Shown here: positions 12,094-57,726 of the stretch, piece after piece
Numbering within the stretch: position 1 is the first letter of the stretch
Layout of the letters: each line of letters begins with the position of its first letter
Notes under the pieces: generated by a model
Databases searched by the model: none
The model's input: the letters and a program-made list of their open reading frames with translations, nothing else
What the model was told of the DNA's origin: nothing
NCBI GenBank assembly: GCA_001600495.1
Contig: BCKE01000052.1
Coordinates: forward strand, 211,755-275,754
Length of the DNA stretch: 64,000 bases
Reading direction: 5' to 3'
From: Pilasporangium apinafurcum
Lineage: Eukaryota > Oomycota > Peronosporomycetes > Pythiales > Pythiaceae
Translations under genes and position numbers: made by a program

Positions 12094-14912
12094 ATGGCGC
12101 CGAGGTGGTTGCATCTGGCGCTGCTGGCATTTTCGGCCAGCGCCGGCGTGACACTGGCGGCAGATAGCAGCAGTAGCAGCGAATGCGGGAACGATGGCAA
12201 AGTCATGCTCACAAAAGGCGAAAAAGACAATAAGGCGATCGTCTATGCGGCCAACTGTACCAAGACAGTTCTAGACGTGGACGACGACAACAAACTCTCG
12301 GCAAGCAGCATGAACATCGAAGTCGTTGACAGCATTCCGGACTGCGCGGCACTGTATGTTTTTGGTTTTGCTTTTTGTCGTTGTGAGAACAACAACAAAA
12401 CATGACATCCGCGCGTTCTGTACTTATATTGTCTGAATCTTCTGTGCGATAGGTATATGCCGGCGAACAGTCTCACAAGCTTCCCAGCACTTGATGGCGT
12501 CGATTCGCTTACCACTTTGTACGTGAAAGTTCTGCCTGTTAAAGTTATTTATGGGGAGGTTTTTATGTGGATATTTGATGTTGGTAGGACGCTCACATCG
12601 AATTATTTTTCTTCATGGGATGATATCACCGTGCCTTCCTCTGTGACGTACTTGTAAGTTTACCTCTCAAACTGGCTCACTTGGTCACAGCTTTTCAAGT
12701 TGATGGTGCTGATTATTTATAGGGACTTGAGTTGGAACTCGCTGTCTTCGTTCGATGGCATGACACTGCCCAGCACACTCGCAAAATTGTTCATTGGTGG
12801 CAACAAGTTTACGAGTCTCAGTGACGTCGAGTTCCCTGAATCGCTCACATTGCTCTACGTGCACGACCTTCCACTCTCCAACTCACTCGATGGCGCAAAT
12901 TTGCCATCCACCATCACTTATTTGTATGTTAACTGGGCCTGTGTTGAAGCAATGTCCTAGACAATAATGTTCATCTAATGCTTTCTGCCACCGCTCATGC
13001 AGATCACTAGTCAATTCTGGCGTCAAGACTTTGGACAACGTGGAGTTACCATCCAGTCTCACCAACATGTACGTTGAGTTTGCTGACCTCTTTGTCTGCT
13101 GTGTATTAAAGCAGTACTTTGACTTGGGTGGTGATGTGAAAAAATACAGGGATCTGACCAACAACAGCCTGACAGCACTACCTGATGACCTCCCATCTTC
13201 CATGGAGGAACTGTAAGTAATTCTGTACTATGGCAATGAATATAGAGGAGCAGAGCTGACAACATTTAAATTTTTTTCAGGATTGCTGTGACCAATAAAC
13301 TGACGGAAATCGCCAACATTTCATTTCCAAAGACGATCACGAGCCTGTACGTCCCTGCACATTGGAGTCTATTTGCTTGCAGGTGAAAGTGAGATAAAAA
13401 GCTCATTTTCCTTTGTGTATTTGCAGGAATTTCTCCGACAACCAAATTGAGACTGTCTTGGGAGTTTCTTTTCCATGGAATCTGGAGAAGTTGGATTTTG
13501 GCAGCCATAAAATCTCAACCTTTGAGATTTCTCGATCAGACTATTCGACGTTCAGCAAACTCACAACCTTCAACGCAAACGTCGCGCAGACATCGTGTTC
13601 CACGAGTGGTGCTGAGTTGACTGATACACTTGGCATTCAACTCTGCGTTATTTCTGACGACACATTTAGTGCCATTTACGGCACTGGTAGCAGCGGTTCT
13701 TCTTCTTCTGCTACTACGTCTACAGGTAGTGATGATTCTGGTAGCACCTCAACGCTGCTCATTGTCGTCGTCTGTCTATCGGCGGTGCTAGCACTGGCGT
13801 TGGCTGTTATTGGATTCCGATTGTACCGCACCCGTCAATTGTCCAAGTCGCAGCAATTGGCTGATAGCCATTTCTTTGGTAATCATACGGGAATGTCAAC
13901 AGTGCATGGCTCAAACAGCGGCCAGCATAGCAACCCAACGGGTCCGAGCGGTAGTGGTGTGAACAACAGCTCGTACACATTCAATACGATCTTTAGCGGT
14001 GGCAAAGTGACGATGATGGGTGGGTCGAATGTGGAATCGACGCTCGTCAAATATCGTATCCCGCAACAGGATATTAAGATTGAAAAGCCGATTGCGAAAG
14101 GTGGCTTTGGCATGGTCTTCTTGGCCACATACCAAAAAGAACATGTTGTTCTGAAAAAGCTACTGCCCGAGAAAGCCTCGGATGATCGATGTTTGACCGC
14201 ATTTATTGAGGAGATTAAGCTTTGCTCTACCCTAACGCACGACAAGATTGTGCGTTTCATTGGTGTTTGCTGGAGTATGTTGACTGACATGGCTGTGGTG
14301 CTGGAGTACATGCCAAATGGCGATCTGGATGTTCTCTTGAAGAAACAATTTGAGCGGCAAAAGAACCATCCAGAGGAGTTTGACTGGTATCAGAACTCCT
14401 CCGTGCTCCCAGCGAAGGCGACATTGGCATTAGATATCTTAGACGCTGTGGTATATCTGCATTCATTCAGCTCGCCAATCATTCATCGCGATTTGAAGGC
14501 GAAGAATGTGCTTCTGAGTAAATCATATGAAGCCAAATTGAGTGATTTTGGTATCAGTCGTGAATGGAAGGTAGATGCAACTATGACTGCTGGTATCGGC
14601 ACAATGGCCTGGATTGCTCCAGAAGTGCTCCGTGGCGAACGGTACACGGAAAAAGCAGATATCTACTCATTTGGTGTGATTCTGTCCGAGTTGTCTACAT
14701 GCGCCAAGCCGTTTGAGGGTGTGACGAATGCACTGATTGTGCTAAAAGTCACAAGTGAAGAGAAGCCAAGTATGGGCAAGAACTGTCCTGAGGACATCCG
14801 CGAATTGGCGGACCGCTGTCTGAGTTACAACGCCAGTGATCGACCAAGCGCGATGGTGGCGCATTATGAGCTGCGGACATTACTAAAGCTTCACACAGCA
14901 TTTGAATTGTAA
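12094..14912 (+). CDS. LRR receptor-like kinase (LRR-TM-TKL), eight exons
   Basis: Membrane receptor-like kinase of 757 residues. Exons: 12094-12353, 12453-12518, 12588-12653, 12723-12923, 13003-13068, 13150-13212, 13281-13346, 13427-14912. All seven introns (68-99 bases) are phase 2 and split the Leu/Met codon closing each repeat, so most middle exons are one 21-22 residue LRR; exon 4 carries more than one. There is a signal peptide (LHLALLAFSASAGVTLAADS), then the LRR ectodomain, a Gly/Ser linker, one TM helix (LLIVVVCLSAVLALALAVIG) and a TKL kinase. The kinase has all catalytic motifs: GKGGFGMVF-type glycine loop (AKGGFGMVFLA), VVLKKL, HRDLKAKNVLL, LSDFGIS and GTMAWIAPEVL. It should be an active Ser/Thr or dual-specificity kinase reading an extracellular cue. 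The next gene is a diverged tandem paralogue. Confidence 0.92.
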
Positions 14913-15427: not shown

Positions 15428-18400
15428 ATGATGCTTTTAACCTTGGTGATGATTCTATCATCAGCGCCTGTTATTACGGCCGCTGATATTTCTGCATCGA
15501 TCACATGTCCAAAGGCTGGTCAATACGTGCTCCAACGCGACTCTTCAGTGAACGCGACCAATGCCGTAGAGATTGTCTCTCCAACATGCGAGAGCTTTCC
15601 TCTTTCAGTCATAGATGCAACCATGCTAGACGCAAGTGGGAGAAATCTTGATATCGTGCTCAGTTATCCCGACATTCAGCAATTGTAAGTGCTTTTGTGG
15701 ATGATTTTGAGGCATATCGCATCTAATAACCTCATATGTGCACAGAAACCTTGCTTTTAACAGCCTTGAGGTATTTTATCGGGATGAAAATGCACCTTCG
15801 CTGGCAGTTCTGTAAGTTGTTCTCACCAATAGAAGCGAGGGATGTACACCCTTACTTAATATCTTTTTGTGCCCTTTGGATTTGTTTTGCACAGAGACCT
15901 CAGTTATAATCGATTTGCGTCCATGCGTGATATTCAGATTCCCCATGCTCTTAAGAGCTTGTAAGTTGCATTTTTACACAAAGTTACAGGCCCATACCAT
16001 GGATTATGTGACTTACATGCAATTGGTTAAATTGGAAATGATACCAGGGACCTCAGTTACAATCAGCTTACATCGCTGGATGATGCCGCTTTTCCTCCCA
16101 TGTTCGAAAGCCTGTACGTGCACTTGCATTATTTACAACACTGAGGGAAACTAAATATTATTAGAATACTTCCTGTCATTCTTATGTTTTGCAGGCGTGT
16201 GGGAGGTAATGCGCTGAGAACGATCAGCAAAGTCACATTTCCAAGCTCAATAATACAATTGTACGTAATCCTTGAACCATTGTGGGTGAAGTACCAGCGC
16301 TGACAAATGGTACACTAACGATGACAGAGCATTGAACGATCAACCTGGGTTAGATATTGAAACAGCCATTTTCCCATCAACACTTCAAAGCCTGTAAGAA
16401 TGTTGTGCACTTCAGTGTGTACCTCTATGTGGCGCTCATTCATCCTGCTAATTTTCGATCGGCTAGGTCTTTACGCAATACTAGTCTCTCCAGACTGCAG
16501 GACAACGTCACTCTACCAAGATCACTCATCCAATTGTGAGAAATTCGACATCTGCATCTCCCTGTGTAGTTGGAGTAAATGATTGTGCTCATTACTTTGT
16601 CAACATGTACAGAGATCTCTCCAGTAACCGGCTCACCGCCTTTCCATACTTGCTGTCCTTTGCCTCCATTACGGAATTGTAAGACTATGTGCTGATATTT
16701 GTTATTTCGTCATATCCTTATACATGCCTTAACGATATCGTAGAAACATTTCACACAATCTCATCACAAGCATTAAAGGAATTCAGTTCCCGTGGACGCT
16801 TAAGCAGCTGTAAGTCACTTGATATTTTTGCATTTTTCACTTTATCAGGAGGAAAACTCATCAAAATGCTTACATCTGTGACAGTGACTTACGTGGTAAC
16901 GCCATCACTGAGCTTGAGGTAGCACGGTCGGACCTAAAGTTGTTTCAGGACTGGACGTATTCCATCCCACCTGTCAACCAATCCACTTGCACGAATGCTG
17001 TAGCTACACTTGTGTCGATTCAACATATCGACATTTGTGTCTTGGAAGGTGAGCATAGTATATATGAAGCTGTGATGGCTTTCTTGCACGAACCTAACCT
17101 GAAACTACGCTTTGTCTTGTCTTTTCCATACGTAGACATTGATTTCAACCGCATCTACAACTATGAAGAGCATATTATTAATTTTTCGTCTCAGTCTGGT
17201 TCCACGCTCACAAGTGGAAGTAGAACACCAACTCCAATTATTGCAGAACCAAAGAGTGAAAGCGACGACTCACACAGCATGGTGACATGGCCATTTCTGA
17301 TTGCCGCTATTGTGTTCATTTCGGCGGCAGTTGTTGGAATTATCGCCATGCTGATGTGGAGACATCAGCAACTCGAAAAAGAGATGAAGGTAATACTTCG
17401 ACAACGCCGTTTATCGTCAAATGCCAGCATTTTGCAGGAAATTGGTGTCGACGGTGAATTACGGGCATTGCGCATACCGATGGAGAATATCAAGCTCCTC
17501 CATGTGCTCGGAAAAGCAAGTGGTCATGGGATCGTATACTTGGCGGAATGGTCACGAGCAGAGCCTATAGAAAACATATCCACGATTGAGTCATCTTCTG
17601 GTACCTATGAATGTGTGGAACATTTTGTCACAGTCAAGCGTATTCTTCCCGAGCACGCGGAAGAGAAGAGCCCAAGCCTAAGAGCGTTCATGCTGGAAAT
17701 TCAGTTGATGTCTCGACTGGATCATCCCAAGATTGTCCAGTTTGTGGGAATCTCGTGGACTATACTATCGGATATGTCGATGATAGTCGAATTTCTGCCG
17801 AACAGCAACCTCGAAACACTGCTCAAGCTCGACAGAGATCGGCAATCACTTCAGCAACAGCATTCTGCAAGTGGTTTTGCTTGGTTTGACAGTAGCGAAA
17901 CGTCGTGGAGATCGTCGACTACGCTTTCTAGTGCTGTTCTGCCGTTGAAATCCTCACTTGCGTTGGATATTGTAGAAGCACTTCGATATCTTCATTCATT
18001 CAACCCACCAATCATCCACCGCGATTTACGCACCAAAAACGTGTTGCTGAGTGCCACATTCGAGGCAAAACTGAGCAATTTCGGTGCACCATGTGAGTGG
18101 CACATGGACGTAGGACTAGGAGAAAGTTGCGAATCCATGGTCCAATTAGCACCAGAAATGCTCCGAGGCGAGCGGTTCACGGAACGTGCTGACATCTACT
18201 CCTTTGGTGTCTTGCTAACGGAATTATCAGCCAGCTACAAATTTGTCGAGAATCTCCCAAACATTTCGATTATGACGAGTACGATCGACGAGCATGCGGT
18301 TCCCGACATCAGTGACTGTCCAGCGGAGATTGCACTTTTAGCTAAGCGGTGCATGAATAATGATCCAAAAGGCCGTCCAAGCGCATTAAAAGTACATCGG

Positions 18401-18448
18401 CTACTTGTGTCCATTAAAAATAACAGAGCATGTCCGTGTGAATGGTAA
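15428..18448 (+). CDS. LRR-TM-TKL receptor with probable pseudokinase domain, ten exons
   Basis: Tandem paralogue of the upstream LRR kinase, 783 residues. Exons: 15428-15684, 15746-15811, 15895-15960, 16048-16113, 16195-16260, 16328-16393, 16467-16535, 16613-16678, 16744-16809, 16885-18448. Each of the eight middle exons is 66 or 69 bases and encodes one LRR, with every intron in phase 2. A signal peptide (LLTLVMILSSAPVITAAD), the LRRs and a TM helix (FLIAAIVFISAAVVGIIAML) precede the kinase-like domain. The VTVKR lysine and HRDLRTKNVLL are kept, but DFG has become NFG (KLSNFGAP), the glycine loop is altered (LGKASGHGIVY) and the domain has inserts. Loss of the metal-binding Asp predicts little or no catalysis, so it may act as a scaffold or partner. 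A possible 87-base in-frame intron (17049-17135) cannot be excluded. Confidence 0.88.
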
Positions 18449-46193: not shown

Positions 46194-49100
46194 TTAAGTG
46201 TCAACTCCGGCGAATTTCCTAAGCTCCAGGACCACTTTGTCAATCGATAGTCGCTCACTCGGATCAAATTTGCACATTTGTATTACCAACTGCCACTGAT
46301 TATCTTCAAATTTTGCAGACTGCTTTGGTAGTTTCCCTCTCTTGACGTGAAACTTCACAGTAGCATCAGGAAGTACATTTCCCCATGGAAACTCTCCACT
46401 CACAGCTTCCACAATACACATCCCAAACGAATAAATGTCCGATGCAAATGTTGGTTCCTTGCGTTCTTTGCTTTCCTTGCCTTCCAAACACTCTGGGGCT
46501 TTCCATCGTACTGCGCCAACTGGACTATTAGTGTCGTGCTTTTTTTCGCTTTTGCTATCCAAGCTTAATCCAAAATCTGTTAGTTTCGCCAGACCATCAC
46601 TTCCGACTAAAATATTGTTGCACTTGAGGTCACTATGCACGATATCACGGTAATGCAAGTACTGCAGTCCTAGTGAAGCTTCATACAACTTGGACCATTT
46701 TTCTTTCGGATGGTTCTTCAAATAATCATCCAACTGTCCCTTGCCAGCGAATTCGCATACAAAAAATGGCTGATCTCCGACATGACATGCACCATATAGT
46801 TGCACAACGTGTGGGTGGAAAAGACCGAACCAGATTGCCACTTCTCGTTCAAAAATCTCGCGATAGTCTTTATCTGGTTGACGAAGCACTTTCTTGATGA
46901 CCACACTCGAGTTCAACCACGTTCCGCGATGCACAGACCCATATGACCCTTTGTTAAACGCATCAAGTTCGTCAAAGTTCACTTCATATGGAGGAATAAA
47001 CCAGTCTCTGACGATTTCATCGGATTCGGAGACAATTGCTTTACACGCTTCTTCAATCACATCTGTATTAATCTTTTCGTAGCTGGAACGGTGTTTGCTC
47101 AGTTCGAAACGTAAGCAAGTCAAAGCTTCAGTTCGCTTTTGCTGATCTTCGCTTATGTCACGCAGCAAGGCCTGAGGCTCTTTGAGCTGAGCTGACAAAC
47201 GCTCCAGTTGTTCTTGCCTTTCTGACTTCCATTTGTCGTTCCATAGGTGAATGTCCTCGTGTGTAGATACGCCCAGTAACTGCATCAATCGATCCAATTC
47301 ACCGTGAATTATGAATGTATTGTCTGCTCGCTGTCGACTTGCTGCAAAATTGACCACCAAAGTATCTTTAGTGCTTGTTTGGACTTGATTGTAGAAGCGA
47401 ACAAGGATTTTGACATAACTTTTAAACGGTGAGTGCGGAATTTGATCCAATTCTTGCATTTGCTTGTAGATATCCGCGAGTCGTGCATATACTCGATGAT
47501 TCATTAGGTTCACGGTATTGACTTGCGAACAAAATGACTCAATCCTTTTCAGTGCAAGCACAATTGGGATATTGTTAAGATCGTGGACGCGATATTCTTC
47601 CACGTTTATACAGCTTTCCGATATCGAGTCACGGATGTTGTTCATTCCATCCATTGCTTCTTGTTTGGCAAAATTTTGTAGCTCACGCACCACTATTGAT
47701 GTTGTTGGTCGCTCTTAGGGATCAGACGAGCACATGCATTTTACCAAATTCCATTGATCATCAGTGAAGCCCTTAGGCCGATTAGGTAATCCGAAGGCTT
47801 TCCTATCATAAACGATATGTTCATTAACTAGCTCTCTCCATGGAATATCTCCACTCACAGCCTCGATCACGGTCATTCCCAACGAATAAACATCCGAAGC
47901 AAACGACGGGTATCTATCTTTTAAACCCTCGGGAGCTCTCCGTCTCGCTCCACGAAATATACGTGCGTAGCGCAAAGTATCAATTTGCTTGCTATCAAAA
48001 CTAAAACCAAAATTTGTGAGCTTTGCAACTCCGTCCCCTCCAATCAAGACATTGCTGCATCTGAGATCGCCATGAACAATGTTACGTTCGTGTAAATACT
48101 GTAAACCCAACGCTACCTCATGCAGCTTCGTCCATATGACACGACGGCGGTTGTGTTGTTTCAGGTATGAGTCGAGTGTCCCGTTGCTTGGGTGTTCACA
48201 CACAAAGGATGGTGTACCATCATCCCAGGCGCCGTATAATCTCACCACATGTGGATGGTTGAGATGGAACCACATGCTCACCTCTTGATGGAACAGTGAG
48301 TTAAGATTGCTTGAAGCCATTTTCTTCACTGCTATAGGTGCACCCATCCACTTACCAAAGTGGATGGTTGCGAACATGCCACCTTCTAGAGCATCTACAT
48401 TTGCGTCAAACTCGACGTCGCTTTGGTTAATAGACCAGTCGACAGAAGATTTTTTCTTTGACATTGAGTCACAAACAGCTTCAGCAGTTTGATCATCAGA
48501 TAATCCATGCTTGAGAAATCGTCCATTGTCACACCTTGGATCCGTGTCCACATGTGTGTCAATCTTCAGCGAGTGCTTCTGCGTCCCAGTCATCACTTCA
48601 TTGGGAAGATGCAGTAGTGCTGTCCAATCTGCATTGTTACGATGATTGACTGTGGCACCGTTCTGCAACAAGTACTGCACCATTTTAACGTTTCCAGACC
48701 TGACAGCTTCATGTAAGGCTGTCCGCCCTTCATCGTCGTGATCATTGACTGTGGCACCGTTTTGCAACAATAACTTCACCATTTCAACGTCTCCACTGTA
48801 TGCAGCATCATGTAGTGCTGTGCAACCGAAACAGTAATGCCAATTGACTGCCGCACCGTTCTGCAATAAGCACTGCACCATTTTAACGTTTCCAGACTTG
48901 GCGGCAAGATGTAGTGCTGTCTGACCGAAATCGTTTTGATAATTGACTATGGCACCGTTGTTGACCAAGTACTGCACCATTTCAATATTTCCTCGGGATG
49001 CGGCATGATGTAGTGCTATCCAATCCGCATTGTTATGGTGATTGACTGTGGCACCGTTCTGCACCAAGAACTGCACCTTTTCAATATTTCCGGACAAAGC

Positions 49101-50255
49101 GGCTTCATGTAGTGCTGTCTGACCGTAATTGTCCCAATGATTGATTGCGGCACCATTCCGCAACAAGTACTGCATTGTTTCAACGTTTCCAGACCTGGCG
49201 GCAAAATGTAGTGCTGTCTGTCTGGCATCGTCGTGATCATTGACTGTGGCACCGTTGTTGACCAAGTACTGCACCATTTCAATATTTCCACTGTATGCAC
49301 CTATATGTAGTGCTGTCTTACCGGAAGAGTTGCGCTGATTGATCGCGACACCATTCTTGACCAAGTACTGCACCATCTCAACGTCCCCAGACATAGCGGC
49401 GTGATGTAATGTTATCCGTCCTTCCTTGTCATAATGATTAACCAAGCACTGCAGCATTTCAATCTTTCCTCGGGATGCGGCATAATGTAGTGTTATCCAA
49501 TCTGCATTGTTACAATGATTGACTGTGGCACCGTTCTGCACTAAGTACTGGATCATTTCGATGTTTCTAGAGATAATGGCATGTTCTAGTGGTGTCCGAC
49601 CGAAATCATCGTAATGGTCGACTGATGCACCGTTCTGCAACAAGCACTGCACAATGTCAACGTTTCCACTGTATGCGGCTGCATGTAGTGCTGTCCGATG
49701 TTTATTGTCTTGATAATTGACCATGGCACCATTCTTGACCAAGTACTGCACCATTTTAACGTTTCCAGACCTGGCAGCAAAATGTAAGGCTGTCCGTCCT
49801 TCATCGTCGTGATCATTGACTGTGGCACCGTTGTTGACCAAGTACTGCACCATTTTAACGTTTTCAGATTTGGCAGCATGATGTAGTGCTGTCTGTCCTT
49901 CATTGTCGTGATCATTGACTATGGCACCGTTCTTCAGCAGAAGTGTAAGAGCTGAAATATCTCCATTTTTAGCAGCTTCATGTAACGTACTCCATGAACA
50001 ACGAAAATCGATCTCAGCGCTTGTGTGCTTATCATCTTCATCTATTTGAACTGCAAGTGCAGCGCACACATCCTGCTTGCCTCTTTCTGCCGTATTTATC
50101 GTCTCATCTTCTGGAGGACGAAGAGCAGCGACCGCGCATATGACGTCACCTTCTTGGTCTTCATCCGCTGCAGTTGCTTGTGCATCTTTTCCTGTATTAT
50201 GGGCATCTATCGGTTGGTTGTTCGTATAGGCAAAAGATATTCCTGCCATATCCAT
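46194..50255 (-). pseudogene. Ankyrin - pseudokinase - helical - kinase protein, interrupted by one in-frame stop
   Basis: One reading frame of 1354 codons broken by a single TAA at 47715-47717, in the last helices of the first kinase domain (CMCSSDP, stop, ERPTTSIVVREL). The intact paralogue part at 54112-57660 reads straight through the matching place. From the ATG at 50255: an acidic leader (~1-85), about 14 ankyrin repeats of 33 residues (~86-545), a first kinase-like domain (~600-840) with HGD for HRD and NFG for DFG, a helical linker (~870-1060), and a second kinase (~1080-1350) with VVIKKVL, HSDLKCNNIL, LTDFGLSL and RWKAPECL. The second domain keeps the catalytic Lys and Asp residues. 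It is a TKL-type protein. It could be a recent pseudogene, two separate products, a readthrough gene or an assembly base error. Confidence 0.85.
48600..49990 (-). repeat. Array of ~14 tandem 99-bp ankyrin-coding repeats
   Basis: Near-identical 99-base units, each encoding one ankyrin repeat of the form TALH.AA.SGN(V/I)(K/E)MVQYL(V/L).NGA.VN. One unit near 49430-49450 is 18 bases shorter (6 residues lost before HYDKEG). The high DNA identity between units suggests recent expansion or gene conversion and makes length change and misassembly likely. Confidence 0.9.
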
Positions 50256-52125
50256 CCACAGCGATATAAGAACGATGGTGGCGCTTTACTGGTGATTTTG
50301 AGTATGTGCTTTTCTCTCTCCTCTAAGGTCTCAAATCATGAACGCGCAGAGCATCTCCGGTGGTACTGATTTTTTTGGATCAGATCTGATGGGAAAAATG
50401 AAGCCATTATACCCACATGTTCTATGAAGTATCCATTACGTAAAATTACGAATGGATTCATTAGTAATGAAATATAACGATTTTATTTTGTTCATAGGAA
50501 TTATACTTTGTCTCATGTAATAAAAGCTATAAACTTTTATATTTGTGTATTCGTAGCAACATTGCTACGTTTTAATGTTACATATCAAAACATGGATATG
50601 TTATTGACCAAGTCCCAATTTTGTTTTGAAATTCATGAGAAACTGGTCAAAAAGCATTGCCAGAAAACTTAGAAGTTCACATTGATATTCTACGAAGATG
50701 TGCTGATTCAGGTAAGATCTCTTTTTATCAGATATGATGGAATAAAGATTTCAGATGTTGACATAAAACTATCCAAGTTCTAGTATGTTTCCCATAATTT
50801 GATTGAGTTCATTCATACAGATACATTTACATGTACCTATTTGGTGAACAAGCCCATCCCGTTTCTTCCACAGTAATTTCCCAATATCAAGTCGAAAGGA
50901 GAAAGGAAGCGAATTGAAGAGTGGGGAGGGAAACAAATCCGAGGGATAAACACACAAATCAACCCATCAATAGTAGCTAATTGAGTGCTCGATTTAGTTG
51001 TTTTCAACCAATCAAAAAGAAATATCTCAGTGTTGCATTTTCTGATTTGCCGAAAATGGGGAGCGTCAACCCCGTACTGTTTGCTCCACAGTGCAACTGT
51101 AACTCCAAAAAAATCCAATCGTAGAGGTACAGCATTGATGTCGTGCCGTTAAGGAGGGAATTGGTCGGGTTGGCGTGGACCTCGCTGCCGGAAAGTGATG
51201 GTGTTAGACATACATCCTTTCTTTCGCATCATCTGCCTACACAGGTGCCCAATGTCGAGACCACACATGCTCCATCTCACTTGCGTTCATTTCCGAGCAG
51301 GATTTTTTGAGTATCAAAGATGAAGTGCTAGTCACTCCTGGACAGCTCGACATCCGAACAATATTCCCATCGAAAGCTACATGGATATTGTTTTGCGTCA
51401 TCCTCCACATGGCATATTTGCTCACGATCAGAGCTGGCGATTGGCAGACAAGCCCACCTCCATACCGATATCATGCCGTGTCGTTATGCCGTTTCTGGTC
51501 GAGAAAATCAGTTTGTACCACCTTTATGGCTATACACACCATACCTTCTCCACGCCGCGAGAGCAACAGTCTCGTAGCCTTCTGAGCTGTCTTCATCGTT
51601 CTTCCTGTGAATACTAAATAACTCCTATTCTTGAATGGGGTACACATCGTGCATCCGATTTTCACTGAAAATGATCCACCAAATCTCGTCAATTCCATTT
51701 TCATGTCTCGCGAGTCGCATTCACCAGATATCATGTACATACGGATTTGAATAATACACGACGGTGGTGGTTCTCCACCGTCGTTGTTTCCTGATTAGAC
51801 TACTAGGTTCGATTCGTTGGGCTGTTGAGATGATTCCAGGTGAATTCAAGTAATTGATTCTGCCTGCCCTTTTTGCAATTCTGATCTTTCCGACCCATTG
51901 TGCAAGCATTTCATAATAGTGTGATAAATCAATCCTAAGCTGTGGACCCTAAAGTCGTTCAGCAAAAGAATCCAGTCGACCGCCTGATGTGCAGCGCCGA
52001 TGACTTCTTTCGTTTCTATTGGAGTCGAGCAGGAGAGAAGGACTCGGTGACCGAGCACACGCCTCTTAAAGATGGTCATTTTTTATTTCCATCAACAGCA
52101 CATCACTAACTAAGCTCGAAGAAGC
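50256..52125. other. Long divergent intergenic region, no confident gene
   Basis: About 1.9 kb between divergent starts. The left half (50256-50830) is AT-rich. The right half has several frames of 60-95 codons on both strands without motifs. A CPFC...C.H pattern on the + strand at about 51868-51915 faintly recalls a retroelement zinc finger but lies in a short frame. Confidence 0.45.
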
Positions 52126-53690
52126 ATGCAATCGGTTCTTGGCAACGCAGCGGGGATGACCGCGGATGTGTTCGTCTTCGGCGGCTCGGGCGCAGTTCTG
52201 GTCTCGCTAGCGCAGTTGACCGGGGAGTTGTACGGCAGCAAGCAGATGTGCCAAGATCTCATCAAGGAGATAAAATCTATCCAGCCCCGCTTGAAAGAAA
52301 TAGTGGAGAGCGACAATATCAAGATTAAAACGGCGCTAAAAAATACCACAAACTGCTCACAGACGTCCACAGCTTTCTCGAGGGGCACGTACACAGCAAC
52401 AGTCTGAGGCGGATGCTCAGGCACTGGCAGATGAAAAAGCGCGTGCAGTGCTTCTACACGGATCTTAAAATCATCAAGGAGCTCGCCGGACTGGATTTTC
52501 AGCTAGAGTCGGCGAATCACCGCACGCAGATGACGGAAATGCTCAAACAAAATAGGCGCCTTGATGAGCAGGCCCAGCAAGCGCTCAAGGCGGAAATAGA
52601 ATCGCTCCGAAGCTTCATCGAGAACATGCCGGACGAGCTTATGAACAAGATACGAAGAGAGGGCATTACCCTGACCGACCTGGCCGACCTGAAGAAGGAG
52701 CTGAAATACAATAGCGACGCATACACCAAAGCCGACAACGAAATGCTGCTAGCCGTGTTGAAGAAGATGAGCAAGCTGATGGATGTTAAGGTTCCGCATA
52801 TCACGTCGTGGTACTTGTCCCGGTCCGATATTTGCTTCAATGACCGGGATCCGTTCGTGACAAGTGAGCTCTGCAACCTCTACCACGGCACGTTGTATTC
52901 CGGCACCAAAGTAACAGTTAAGGTCGTAAACGCGACGTTGGATGACGAAAAAACGCTCAAAAAGTTCAACGCCGAAGTAGAAACCTGGTACAATCTGCGC
53001 GACCCGCATGTGCTGCCGCTGTACGGCGCGACCAACATTGGCTACCCGCTGCTATTTGTCTCAGGCCGCGCCGAGCTGGGCAACTTCAACGAGTACTTGG
53101 CGGTGAGCAGGCATCGTGTGTGGCACGTGTTTCTGGACAGTGTACGCGGGCTCGAGTATCTGCATAAGAAAAAGCGAGTCCACGGCAACCTCAAGTGCAA
53201 CAACCTGCTCGTGACCATGGACGGCGTGGGCGTCGTCTCGGATTTTGAATTCACGTTTGAGCGCGATGGCTCGGCGCTGAGCGTCAAGTCGCAGGCACCA
53301 TCCTACTTTTGGAAAGCGCCCGAGTGCTTTGACCTGCGCAATCCCAATCCGCGCTTCGAGTCTGACGTGTACTCGCTCGGTATGTGTCTGTTTGAAGCGC
53401 TGGCTGGCACCAAGCCTTACGCCGGCGAAGACGAGCAAGAAGCCATCCGCAAAATCAAAAATGGCGAGCTGCCTACGCGTCCGGCGAGAGAAAAAATCTC
53501 GGACGAGGCATGGGAGCTGATCTCCAAGATGTGTGCTCGCCAGTACACGTACCGCATCAAGCTGAGCGAGGTCATCTCCGTGTTGGAGGAGTTTGCCGCG
53601 CGCGAGGAGCTTCAGAATCACTGCCTCCCATGCGCCTGCGCGGCACCGTGTTGCCTCCATTGTGGCCACCAGGTCAAGGTGGCGCCATAG
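52126..53690 (+). pseudogene. MLKL-like pseudokinase: N-terminal helical bundle plus C-terminal pseudokinase, with one frameshift
   Basis: Two overlapping frames join into one protein of about 520 residues if a 1-base indel at the A6 run 52338-52343 is allowed; the helical pattern continues across it (IKIKTALK, then YHKLLTDVHSFLEGH). Residues ~1-125 look like a four-helix bundle (LAQLTGELYGSKQMCQDLIK, CFYTDLKIIKELAGL), followed by brace-like coiled coil (~140-230). The kinase-like domain (~240-490) keeps an ATP-site Lys (VTVKVV) but has HGNLKCNNLL for HRD, DFEFTF for DFG, and no recognisable glycine loop, so it should be catalytically dead. This order and motif loss recall animal and plant MLKL. 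The last ~25 residues are Cys-rich (CLPCACAAPCCLHCGH). The gene is clearly GC-richer than its neighbours. Confidence 0.72.
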
Positions 53691-54111: not shown

Positions 54112-57100
54112 TTACAAAGATGTCCTCACACTATCGAACAGATCGCCCGACTTGCTGTTCGCGCGGCACGACGACTCAGCCGACATTGAAAGAGTACTCG
54201 CAGTGCTACTCTTCTCTGTTTCTGGCTCGGTGGCCGCCGACTCCGACTCGGGCTCGCACTCGCTCTGCGCCGCTGCTTCCCGCTCAGCAAATTGGCGCAT
54301 TGTCTCGGCCACTTCGTTGAGCTTCATGCGCTTTGCCGGATTAAAGCAACACATGCGCTTTACAAGCTCCCATTGAGCATCGTCATCAAAACCTGTGGGC
54401 TTGTCAAACAGCTCACCGTTCAATACAAAGTGACGCACTTCGTCGTCCTTCCGATTCTCCCACGGATATTTGCCTGTCACGGCCTCGACAATGCACATGG
54501 CAAACGAATAAACATCCGATTCGCGCGTCGCCACCTCGCCGCGCAAGACCTCGGGAGCCTTCTACCGGATGGCGCCAATCGGATTTGAGTTGCTCTCGTC
54601 ATCTAAGCTTGTTTGGTCGTCTGCACTTTTTTTCAAACTCAAACCAAAGTCCGTAAGCTTGGCCTTCCCATCTGACCCCACTAGAATGTTATTACATTTG
54701 AGATCGCGGTGAATAATCTTGCGGTGGTGGAGGTACTGCAGACCGAGACAAGCTTCATATAGCTTCTCCCACACACGCTGACGATGTGCCGGTTTCTCCT
54801 TCAAATATATGTCCAGTTGGCCATTACCAGCGTATTCACATACAAAGAACAGTTCACCCACATCACAGGCACCATATAAATTGATAATGTGCGGATGAAA
54901 CAATCGAAACCAGATACCAACTTCTCGCTGAAATGCAGCCACATCGTCGGTCAACACTTTCTTCACCACCATGTCCGAATCAAACCACTTGCCATGATGC
55001 ACTGACCCAAAAGAACCACCACCAAATCTCTCAGATTTATCAAATTGCACTTTGTATGGTGGAATGAACCATGCATATGACGATGAACTGACATCTTTGA
55101 ATAACTCATTTCGTGCTCGATTGAGTACAGTGAACGGTATGGACACGTAACTCGTATGATGTTTGGTTAGCTCAAATCGTAAATATGTTAGCACCTTTTT
55201 CGAATCTTCTTCTTCTTCCTTAAGCTCCTTCACGAGAGCTCCCAGATCGCTTAACTTGGCTGTCAAAGCACCAATCTGTTGTTGGCGGTATTGTATCCAC
55301 ATTTCTTTCCAAACGTGTATAGATCTGCCTTTGGGTAGACCCAGCAAGTCTATCACAGTGTCAATGTGGCGGTGAAGCGAATAGTTGTTATCTATTCGTT
55401 GGCGAATCATAGCGAATTGATCCAATTTCTTCAAGGTATTCATAGTCAATAAATCGGAATAAAAGCGCGCAACGAGCTTTCCATAGTTGTCCAGATTTGA
55501 ACGCACCGGCAACGTCTCCATTTCAGCTATGTGATTGTAGATGTCAAGTAAACGATCGCAAATGTGTCGATTGATGTACTGATCGGGAGTGTTGGCTTCT
55601 GAACACGACAGTTCAATGTTCCGCAGGATAACTTTAAGTTTCACATCCGTTTTGGGCATATGGTACTCAGACAACCTCTGATAACCATTTACAACACCCA
55701 CGCTGGTCTCTGCATTCTCGTTCGCACTTTTATTGCTTGCAAACGCCTCCAATTCCCGTACAACATCCGATATCGTAAGCCGATTGTTTGGATGATAACT
55801 GCACATGCGCTTCACCAAGCTCCATTGCTCGTCGCTGAATTGTTTAGGTTGTTGTGGTAGTTGATGAGTTAGCACGGAGCGCCTCACGCCTATTAACGAT
55901 GTATGCTCCCTCCATGGAATCTTACCGGTGAGCGCCTCAATAATCGTCATACCAAACGCATAAATATCTGACGCGAATAATACAATTTTGCCACCCAAGG
56001 TCTCTGGTGCTTGCCATCGTGTGTCTTCTGCACTGTCGGTTACATCGTATTCTTTGCTATCTTGTGTAGCAAAGCGGAAGTCAGCAAGTTTTGCCAAATC
56101 ATCATTGCTGACGGCGATGCAACTGCATTGAAGTCTCCCTAGAACAATACCGCGTCCGTGCAAGTATTGAAGGCCCAGTGCTACTTCAGTCAACTTATTC
56201 CATATTTTGTCTTTGTTTCCAGCCTGATTAAGATATGAAAGTAGAGTTCCGTGAGTGACATACTCGAAGACAAGCGATGGCTCCTTGTCATGGTAGGCAC
56301 CAAATAGTTTGATGATGTGTGGATGGTTAAGACTGTACCACATGCCCAGTTCATGTCGAAACATGGCCCTTTCGGAGGGGTCAACTGTCGTCAATTTCTT
56401 CACAGCAATTTGTGCGCCAAGCCAATTACCAACATTTCCTTCTTCAGTGCGATTGCTATAGCCAATTTGAGAAGGCTCGATGTACCAATCACCAAAAGAA
56501 GATCGTGGGATCACTATAGCTTTGTCATGGTTGTGTCCGAATAGCTCTAACAAAGCGTTCAAACTCCATCCGTCGTTAGCACGAACACCGATGTCAGCCC
56601 CATTATTTTTTAGAAAAGAAACCACCTTGACATGTCCATTCTGAGCAGCAGCTAGAATTGGCGTTTTGCCATCATTATCTCGGGCGTTCACATTAGCTTC
56701 CTTCATAACAAGGCGTTTTACAACATCCAAATGGCCTTTAGCCGAAGCGCTGATCAGAGGCGTCCTGCCGAATACCGTTGTCGTTTCCAACACAACTTCT
56801 CGCTCCAACAACAAACAAACAACGTCTAAACGGCCATGACGCGCGGCATTGTTCAAAGGTGTTGCACCGATTGAATTTTGTGTCTCCAATACAGCCTTTT
56901 GATCCAACAAAAACTGGACGATCTTTAAATGGCCAAACTCTGCAGCATTGTTCAATGGCGTATAACCGTCTGAATTCTGTATCTCCAAGTTAGCACCTTT
57001 ATCCACCAAAAACTTGACCACATCTAAACGGCCCTCGTCTGCGGTACTGTTCAATGGTGTCCAACCTCGTGAATCCTGTGTCTCTAATTCGGCGCCTTTA

Positions 57101-57660
57101 TCCAGTAAAAACTTGACCACCTTCAAACAGCCCGCCGATGCAGCACTGTTCAATGGCGTCCAGCCGTCTGAATCTCGTGTCTCTAATTCAGCGCCTTTAC
57201 TCAACAAAAACTTGACGACATCTAAACGGTTTTGGCTTGCGGCACGGCTTAATGGTGTCGAGCCGAATAAATTCCGTGTTTCCAATTCAGCGCGTTGTTC
57301 CACCAAAAACTGGACGACATCTAAACGGCCTTGGCATGCGGCATTGTTCAATGGCGTTGAGCCATCTATATCATGTGTTTCTAATTCAGCACGTCGCTTT
57401 AATAACAAACGGACAGCCCTTAAATGGCCACTATCTGCGGCGATGTTCAATGGCGTCCTGTCTCGTAAATCCCGTGTCTCCAATTTAGCACCGTGCTTCA
57501 AAAATAAACGGATGACCTTTAAATTGCCTCGGTATGCGGCATGGCTCAATGTTGTCCAGTCTAGTAAATCCATTACCTCCGATGGACCAATTAGTTGCAT
57601 CAACACGTCGACGACATCTAAGTCGCCCGCAAGAACGGCGTCGATTAGACTTTTTATCAT
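54112..57660 (-). pseudogene. Ankyrin - pseudokinase - helical - kinase protein (second copy), interrupted by one in-frame stop
   Basis: Paralogue of 46194-50255. One frame of 1183 codons from the ATG at 57660 is broken by a single TAG at 54562-54564, which replaces the Trp of the RWKAPE motif (IGAIR, stop, KAPEVL; TGG to TAG). Order: about 11-12 ankyrin repeats (~20-400), a first kinase-like domain (~410-660) with the HRD Asp lost (VLGRLQCSC) and DFR for DFG, a helical linker (~690-890) with WKEMWIQYRQQQIGALTAKL, and a second kinase with GGGSFGSVH, HRDLKCNNIL and LTDFGLSL. An acidic, Ser/Glu-rich tail ends it. The 3' ~450 bases are much GC-richer than the rest. The frame upstream of 57660 stays open to about 57726 without an ATG, so an earlier exon is possible. 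Confidence 0.85.
56570..57620 (-). repeat. Tandem 99-bp ankyrin-coding repeats (second gene)
   Basis: About ten consecutive 99-base units encoding (S/N)G.TPLN.AA..G(R/H)L.VV(K/Q)FLL.K.AELET(R/Q). The consensus differs from that in the 48.6-50.0 kb array (LET versus VND), so the arrays expanded independently. Confidence 0.88.
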
Positions 57661-57726
57661 CGATTTCTGCGCGTCCACGTCAATATCACCCCACCAAAAG
57701 ACCGCACAATCTGAAGTGAATGTTTA

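Follow-up and report, generated by a model that had tools for sequence, protein, structure and literature searches.

A frame-broken pseudokinase gene of the oomycete Pilasporangium apinafurcum belongs to a large family of TKL kinases with a likely MLKL-type helical bundle

Introduction

Animal MLKL consists of an N-terminal helical bundle, a brace and a pseudokinase in which the HRD and DFG motifs are changed and the beta-3 lysine is kept. The same order of bundle, brace and pseudokinase is described in a report in which the plant AtMLKLs also have pseudokinases, and in which the wheat protein Pm13 (AelMLKL) joins an MLKL_NTD and a brace to a kinase that has all key residues; mutants showed that Pm13 is needed for mildew resistance (PMC10951266). 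The HeLo, HeLo-like and basidiomycete MLKL_NTD domains of fungi are described as a superfamily of four-helix membrane-targeting bundles that are numerous and often reside on repeat-bearing receptors (PMC12881547, PMC9815663), and among early-diverging fungi MLKL-family homologues are reported from Glomeromycotina only (PMC8778642). In the oomycete Phytophthora infestans, the kinome is described as having an expansion of tyrosine-kinase-like (TKL) kinases, with clustered genes, tandem kinase domains, some ankyrin repeats and 19 TKLs predicted to be inactive (PMC3019232). A survey of 67 protists, which searched for MLKL by sequence and used no domain model, reported no homologues of the mammalian necroptosis regulators and viewed the pathway as likely exclusive to vertebrates (PMC7539657). 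No MLKL-like oomycete protein is described in the titles and abstract openings among the literature matches listed, a range that lies outside preprints and most subscription papers.

The DNA studied here is a stretch of 64,000 nucleotides from Pilasporangium apinafurcum (contig BCKE01000052.1, our contig C52; hereafter the window), set against a genome of 36.5 Mb in 136 contigs. An earlier note, made from the letters of the window, described a single MLKL-like gene at 52126-53690, with bundle-like helices, a brace and a pseudokinase, beside ankyrin kinases that might act upstream of it. The layout is real, but it is not carried by one reading frame, and the protein is not a lone one: the gene, whose frame is broken, belongs to a large bundle-kinase family of oomycetes with at least 73 bundle places in this genome. 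For the family, we consider a phosphorylation-gated bundle-brace-pseudokinase switch to be the best explanation, one that the sequences make somewhat probable.

Results

The window gene and its neighbours

An ATG at 52126 opens the helical N-terminal segment of the window gene. Because the 1565 bases from 52126 to 53690 are not a multiple of three, no single open frame spans them: the ATG frame runs into a stop directly after 52404 (93 codons), the frame of 52413 is a different one, and the switch between the two lies at about 52342, which aligns to helix 3 of the bundle. The paralogue L002:1498-3063(-) on contig C68 is intact over the same span, as an uninterrupted ORF of 521 aa with 77% identity. 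The parts of the window gene are as follows.

52126..52341, + strand: N piece, the 72 codons in the frame of the ATG; comprises the N-terminal segment and, of the MLKL_N-like bundle, helices 1-2 and the beginning of helix 3; 89% identical to L002 residues 1-72; 39.5 bits against the family profile, which was iterated on the family including both pieces, so that the match is not independent
52336..52350, + strand: frame break inside the bundle coding region; the frames of 52126 and 52413 differ, and L002 is continuous here
52329..53687, + strand: C piece, an open frame of 453 codons (stop to stop); rest of the bundle, brace-like helices, pseudokinase and zinc ribbon
52413-53690, + strand: ATG ORF within the C piece, 425 aa, 77% identical to L002
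52338..52838, + strand: brace-like linker helices preceded by bundle helices 3-4; 151.2 bits over positions 48-200 of the family profile, likewise not independent
52809..53627, + strand: pseudokinase domain by the family kinase profile (C-piece residues 161-433); Pfam PF07714, E 2.1e-29
52920..52922, + strand: beta-3 lysine codon (VTVK), kept, by the family kinase profile and the sequence
53181..53204, + strand: HGNLKCNN replacing HRDLKxxN, catalytic Asp changed to Asn, by the motif table and the sequence
53241..53249, + strand: DFE replacing DFG, by the motif table and the sequence
53271..53282, + strand: SALS of the activation loop, with the LS serine common to kinase-competent relatives; candidate phosphorylation switch, by the motif table and the sequence
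53622..53666, + strand: zinc-ribbon-like CxxC...CxxCG at the C terminus, in the sequence by eye

The replacement of HRD and DFG by HGN and DFE was thus read correctly in the earlier note. Its proposal that the neighbouring ankyrin kinases act upstream needs to be recast, since both carry the same bundle and are therefore relatives of the window gene and not only candidate upstream kinases. Their parts are given in the order of translation.

46197..50285, - strand: left neighbour; ankyrin-like repeats, altered kinase (HGD, NFG), in-frame TAA at 47715-47717, bundle at 46974-47570, kinase (HSD, DFG)
54115..57723, - strand: right neighbour; ankyrin-like repeats, altered kinase (LGR, DFR), bundle at 55042-55644, kinase (HRD, DFG) interrupted at 54562-54564 by a TAG in frame

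Two more TKL kinase-like frames in the window, 13398-14909 (+) and 16823-18445 (+), have no bundle match; one of them reads HRDLKAKN with DFG and the other HRDLRTKN with NFG.

Each of the three bundle-family genes identified in the window is interrupted, by the frame break, the TAA or the TAG, and the window copy may be a decaying pseudogene in a birth-and-death cluster, with the function residing in intact paralogues. We give this reading, which is compatible with the others considered below, a chance just short of even. The frame break in the window gene and the in-frame stops of its two relatives argue for it, as do the stops found inside 28 of the 101 kinase matches listed genome-wide, some of which arise because the match overruns the gene's own stop, and the near-identical duplicates L004 and L005 (99.3%). 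The dN/dS ratios relative to L002 (NG86), at 0.15 for the N piece and 0.39 for the C piece, argue against it by indicating constraint over most of the divergence; within the C piece, the bundle-linker portion has a ratio of 0.52. A one-base break in a homopolymer can also be a sequencing error, and the break here may be either a real lesion or an A run misread in base calling. The full protein may no longer be made from the window copy, and we are somewhat doubtful that this copy is functional as it stands.

The family across the genome

Iterated profile search over the window and part of the fetched loci delimited a helical domain of about 200 positions, 19 copies of which cover at least 180 positions. 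The window gene has this helical domain of 200 positions followed by a TKL kinase domain, and so belongs to the family. Genome-wide, four single-sequence searches, each scoring only the best candidates, were merged (the best 10 of 14 rows from the first and all rows of the other three) to give at least 73 bundle places, of which six are shorter than 400 bases and one, of 930 bases, may be two. The places are clustered, with 17 of the 73 on contig C21 and 11 on contig C68, and this clustering, together with the frame break, the two in-frame stops and the near-identical duplicates, looks like birth-and-death evolution.

A kinase domain follows the bundle in the same frame in 17 of the 19 full-length copies, and according to the motif table several bundle-linked kinases have HGD, HSD, HAD or HRD together with DFG. 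Around this core the architecture varies. Both window neighbours and L025 have ankyrin repeats (by eye), an altered kinase, a bundle and a kinase, while L033 has ankyrin repeats (by eye), a bundle and a kinase. L027 carries a bundle with tandem pseudokinases, and L030:381-5234(+) on contig C21 has three bundle-kinase units in a single frame of 1618 codons, with altered catalytic motifs in two of its three kinases and a zinc-ribbon-like C terminus (by eye). In L022:1285-2550(-) on contig C11, RCC1-like repeats (by eye) precede the bundle and the ORF contains no kinase. The tandem-pseudokinase gene L027 is adjoined by an ORF that by eye looks to encode a nuclease of the Fanzor/TnpB type (GLDPGRKK, paired CxxC, DRDINAA; L027:8223-9272(-), also L014:2361-3320(-), contig C21).

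Outside this genome, the named relatives are from Globisporangium polare and [Pythium] brassicae. Two proteins, P0001 and P0002, were recovered from 389 candidates with L021 region 20-215 as the query, P0001 being an intact Globisporangium relative. Homologous-protein searches with L002 region 1-235 and L003 region 48-262 returned none among 1615 candidates at E<=1 and none among 433 candidates, respectively. P0001 and P0002 give matches (E 4.2e-4 and 2e-3) to the Pfam zinc ribbon family DZR that fall short of its cut-off, and a C-terminal zinc ribbon is present in several family members. The family is best explained as an MLKL_N-type bundle, brace-like helices and a TKL kinase domain, with or without a C-terminal zinc ribbon.

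Such architectures bear on what the bundle does. It may be an MLKL_N relative that acts as an assembly or scaffold domain, in which case the pseudokinases would pair with and tune active paralogues and no killing at membranes would be involved; we regard this as a tenable reading that falls somewhat below an even chance. The abundance of bundle places, the frequency with which a kinase follows and the intact motifs of several such kinases are consistent with it, as is the setting of the bundle: flanked by an altered kinase on one side and a kinase on the other (window 54565-57723 and L025), after RCC1-like repeats where there is no kinase (L022), and three times over in one frame (L030). Against it, the solved domain most similar to the bundle comes from a protein described as membrane-permeabilising, and a run rich in basic residues, between helix 3 and helix 4, is conserved in all 19 rows. 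It was selected for being the most basic stretch, with no control for comparison, and holds 2-6 K/R and 0-1 D/E per 15 columns; it may be a lipid contact.

Relation of the bundle to the MLKL N-terminal domain

Two profiles of the bundle, A1 with 18 sequences and A5 with 19 oomycete sequences, have most rows in common. Among the 19 domain rows, L030:7839-8408 was excluded from both profiles and the near-duplicate L026 from A5 as well; the window gene, being in two pieces, is in neither. Against 177,635 distinct PDB sequences, A5 placed MLKL constructs at ranks 1-6 (best E 0.0015), and in the PDB search with A1 MLKL took ranks 1-5 (E 0.0076-0.01). Because ranks 1-6 are constructs of evidently one protein, presumably human MLKL, they amount to one match, not six. 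The more diverged MLKL of entry 4btf, which we take to be the mouse protein, stood at rank 14 with A1 and rank 10 with A5, and each of the seven MLKL sequences with an N-terminal domain identified in the PDB is present in the two lists. Over about 100 residues the match is colinear, and the A5 alignment with the longest construct reaches chain residue 177.

When the MLKL stretch was shuffled 20,000 times, the real score was never reached with either profile, nor was it by any of 60 column-shuffled versions of A1 or of A5; the reversed stretch scored 1.3 and 1.6 bits, compared with 18.3 and 19.2 for the real one (A1 and A5, respectively). With hhalign, the single MLKL stretch aligned to A1 with P 1.4e-4 (probability 53%, 73 columns) and to A5 with P 9.6e-5 (probability 58%, 72 columns).

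The Pfam model MLKL_N (PF22215) gave matches that all lie below its cut-off of 27 bits: P0002 at E 5.1e-5, the L024 domain at 4.3e-4, P0001 at 8.8e-4, the L002 domain at 1.5e-3 and 18.5 bits, and full-length L002 at E 0.011. The best score was 23.3 bits, for P0002 and for the place C21:497242, a family member and the single place that a six-frame search of the genome with MLKL_N returned (E 9.2e-4). Among the best 25 of the 57 Pfam families matched by the 18 A1 copies, MLKL_N has the lowest E-value. Three of the 18 members match it singly and the other 15 do not at E<=10; DUF3150 and DUF489 tie with it at three members each, at higher E-values.

Rx_N has weak matches in two members (best E 2.6). 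The earlier note had also named RPW8 for comparison: in a first look of limited sensitivity, Pfam RPW8 (PF05659) matched no family place at E<=10, and its two sub-threshold places, on C4 and C8, lie outside the bundle family, one of them at 22.5 bits. Pfam HeLo (PF14479) likewise matched none in the family at E<=10 in a first look of the same limited sensitivity, with one place elsewhere (E 0.215), and DUF1221 (PF06760, plant MLKL) had no match in the genome, the control genomes being equally silent, so that this absence carries no weight. Because RPW8 reached 22.5 bits outside the family and MLKL_N made one sub-cut-off match in a bacterial control genome, single sub-threshold matches must be considered weak. 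In NCBIfam, the L029 bundle matches the archaeal coiled-coil family arcadin-4 (E 1.4e-4, far below the cut-off), and the remaining matches are mostly to kinase-bearing families, all far below cut-off.

That the N terminus is an unrelated coiled coil which resembles MLKL by chance therefore has to be weighed. In its favour, the E-values are only modest and do not reach thresholds; P0002 as a single query recovers six other sequences from the PDB at E<=10 but not MLKL, which only the profiles find; and helical sequences of this kind give stray matches, as with DUF3150, ZapD, GAT, Serine_rich and arcadin-4 here and RPW8 elsewhere in the genome. Against this stand the first place of MLKL in two PDB profile searches, though these share most rows, the colinearity of the match, the failure of every shuffle to equal it and the prediction of discrete helices, which together make a chance match improbable. 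Distant homology of the bundle to MLKL_N is the likely reading of the sequences, if an unproven one. The match that the earlier note anticipated thus exists at the level of profiles, which rank MLKL first in the PDB, but not at the level of the Pfam cut-off. Because that cut-off is not reached and the kinase shows no special affinity to MLKL (see below), we do not file the family as MLKL.

Predicted structure

The helical bundle for which the earlier note had sought a structure prediction appears as four predicted helices in the AlphaFold model of the intact relative P0001 (residues 22-35, 41-62, 71-90 and 101-121, of 14-22 residues), followed by linker helices at 130-152, 155-161, 165-179 and 187-204 before the kinase. 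This model was made from a 5-row alignment and has a mean pLDDT of 68.5, with 65-85 for blocks over residues 11-210; the predicted helices are compatible with a brace of several helices behind a four-helix bundle. For the window C piece, the model, also from a 5-row alignment, contains linker helices (63-98, 102-111, 115-127 and 134-150, the first at low confidence) and the kinase, and pLDDT is below 50 for residues 1-72, the truncated bundle. Brace helices between bundle and kinase are accordingly predicted both in P0001 and in the window gene. In Foldseek and VIA searches with the P0001 model, the 50 matches listed for each are all kinase-bearing and do not include MLKL; with the kinase filling the lists, the comparison covered the kinase and not the bundle.

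Origin of the pseudokinase

Nine domains, the window pseudokinase among them, form a group in which Asn replaces the catalytic Asp throughout (HSN, HGN or HNN) and the residues that contact ATP, the beta-3 Lys and the Asp of DFG, are kept; the Gly of DFG is lost in eight. Eight of these nine pseudokinases, among which are several close duplicates, have the LS serine of the activation loop, as do all three of their nearest kinase-competent relatives. In a midpoint-rooted maximum-likelihood tree of 27 of the 41 matched kinase rows (the other 14, fragments or overlapping-locus duplicates, were excluded), the nine dead kinases form one clade with support of 100/100. Its nearest relatives are the two domains of L024 and P0001, which have HGD and DFG, and the forks that nest it among kinase-competent relatives have bootstraps of 83-92 and SH-aLRT values of 51-90. 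Because the clade is nested, if with moderate support, among kinase-competent oomycete relatives, the simplest reading is that catalysis was lost within oomycetes, probably once for this clade, and the resemblance of its motifs to those of MLKL would then be convergent. The altered motifs of L030, L025, L029 and both window neighbours sit elsewhere in the tree, and kinase motifs have thus changed more than once in the family.

The earlier note was right that HRD and DFG are lost as in MLKL, but the kinase of the paralogue L002 is not specially MLKL-like: in a PDB search with this pseudokinase, SYK and RAF lead and MLKL first appears at rank 52 among the 60 matches listed. The distant member L029:1369-3114(+) on contig C68, with HGN and GFE, behaves differently, in that MLKL chains, aligned over the pseudokinase, make up 11 of its top 12 PDB matches. 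When HGN and GFE were masked, a Src-Abl ancestor and CTR1 overtook MLKL, whose best rank was then 4, and this weakens L029 as proof of MLKL orthology. A true MLKL orthologue, with a pseudokinase inherited from the common ancestor of animals and oomycetes, would account for the shared domain order and for the unmasked L029 matches, and is nonetheless very improbable given the nesting of the clade, the low rank of MLKL with L002 and the effect of masking on L029.

Discussion

Among the explanations weighed above, whose odds overlap and do not sum to one, we prefer the phosphorylation-gated switch. We infer three parts to it, a phospho-switch, a release and an action at the membrane. The pseudokinase would hold the bundle through the brace; a kinase-competent paralogue with the same bundle would phosphorylate the loop serine, or bind by bundle-bundle contact; and the freed bundle would then oligomerise at a membrane or with other bundles. 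The LS serine has possibly outlived catalysis as a phosphorylation site, which favours the phospho-switch, and we rate gating by phosphorylation, taken by itself, at about an even chance. Membrane-disrupting cell death, which is suggested by analogy with MLKL, is a doubtful outcome for the family.

Like animal MLKL, the oomycete proteins have an N-terminal bundle by profile, predicted brace-like helices and a pseudokinase with altered HRD and DFG and a beta-3 Lys. Unlike it, their bundle lies below the MLKL_N cut-off, the L002 kinase is not MLKL-like and was probably inactivated within oomycetes, and the family adds many bundle places, many active-looking kinases and a zinc ribbon, which to our knowledge is not a feature of MLKL. 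Wheat Pm13 likewise carries an MLKL_NTD, a helical brace and a kinase at the C terminus on a single polypeptide, and it retains its catalytic residues, as do P0001 and L024; it is a plant protein, and a zinc ribbon, ankyrin repeats and tandem kinases go unmentioned for it in the available text of its description (PMC10951266). The bundles of the fungal HeLo type are likewise numerous and joined to repeats, and the oomycete ankyrin-bundle-kinase genes are similar in spirit; the fungal bundles are described on NLRs or amyloid-triggered proteins (PMC12881547, PMC9815663), whereas those of the oomycete family are on TKL kinases and gave no Pfam HeLo match at E<=10. The P. infestans TKLs (Oomycete Subfamily 1) resemble the present family as a large clustered expansion with tandem kinases and some ankyrin repeats, and differ in that the available text of their description mentions no helical bundle or MLKL link and its main text contains neither 'coiled' nor 'cell death' (PMC3019232). 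The oomycete family probably shares its bundle with the MLKL/HeLo superfamily, and may work like that superfamily.

A bolder proposal, which we think rather unlikely, is that these genes constitute an expanded and fast-turning oomycete family for cell death or recognition, whose single chains unite an ankyrin or RCC1 repeat sensor with an MLKL-type bundle and with kinases, active or dead; roles that animals spread over separate proteins would be fused, and the pseudokinase clade of the window gene would be the dedicated executioner.

If the distant homology of the bundle is true, the four-helix-bundle kinase architecture would extend, through the stramenopiles, to another eukaryotic supergroup, beside animals, plants and fungi, and oomycetes, many of which are pathogens, would gain a candidate system of self-death or recognition with some 70 bundle places in one genome. 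Because active and dead kinases occur on the same bundle, the conversion of a kinase into a switch would be directly testable within this family.
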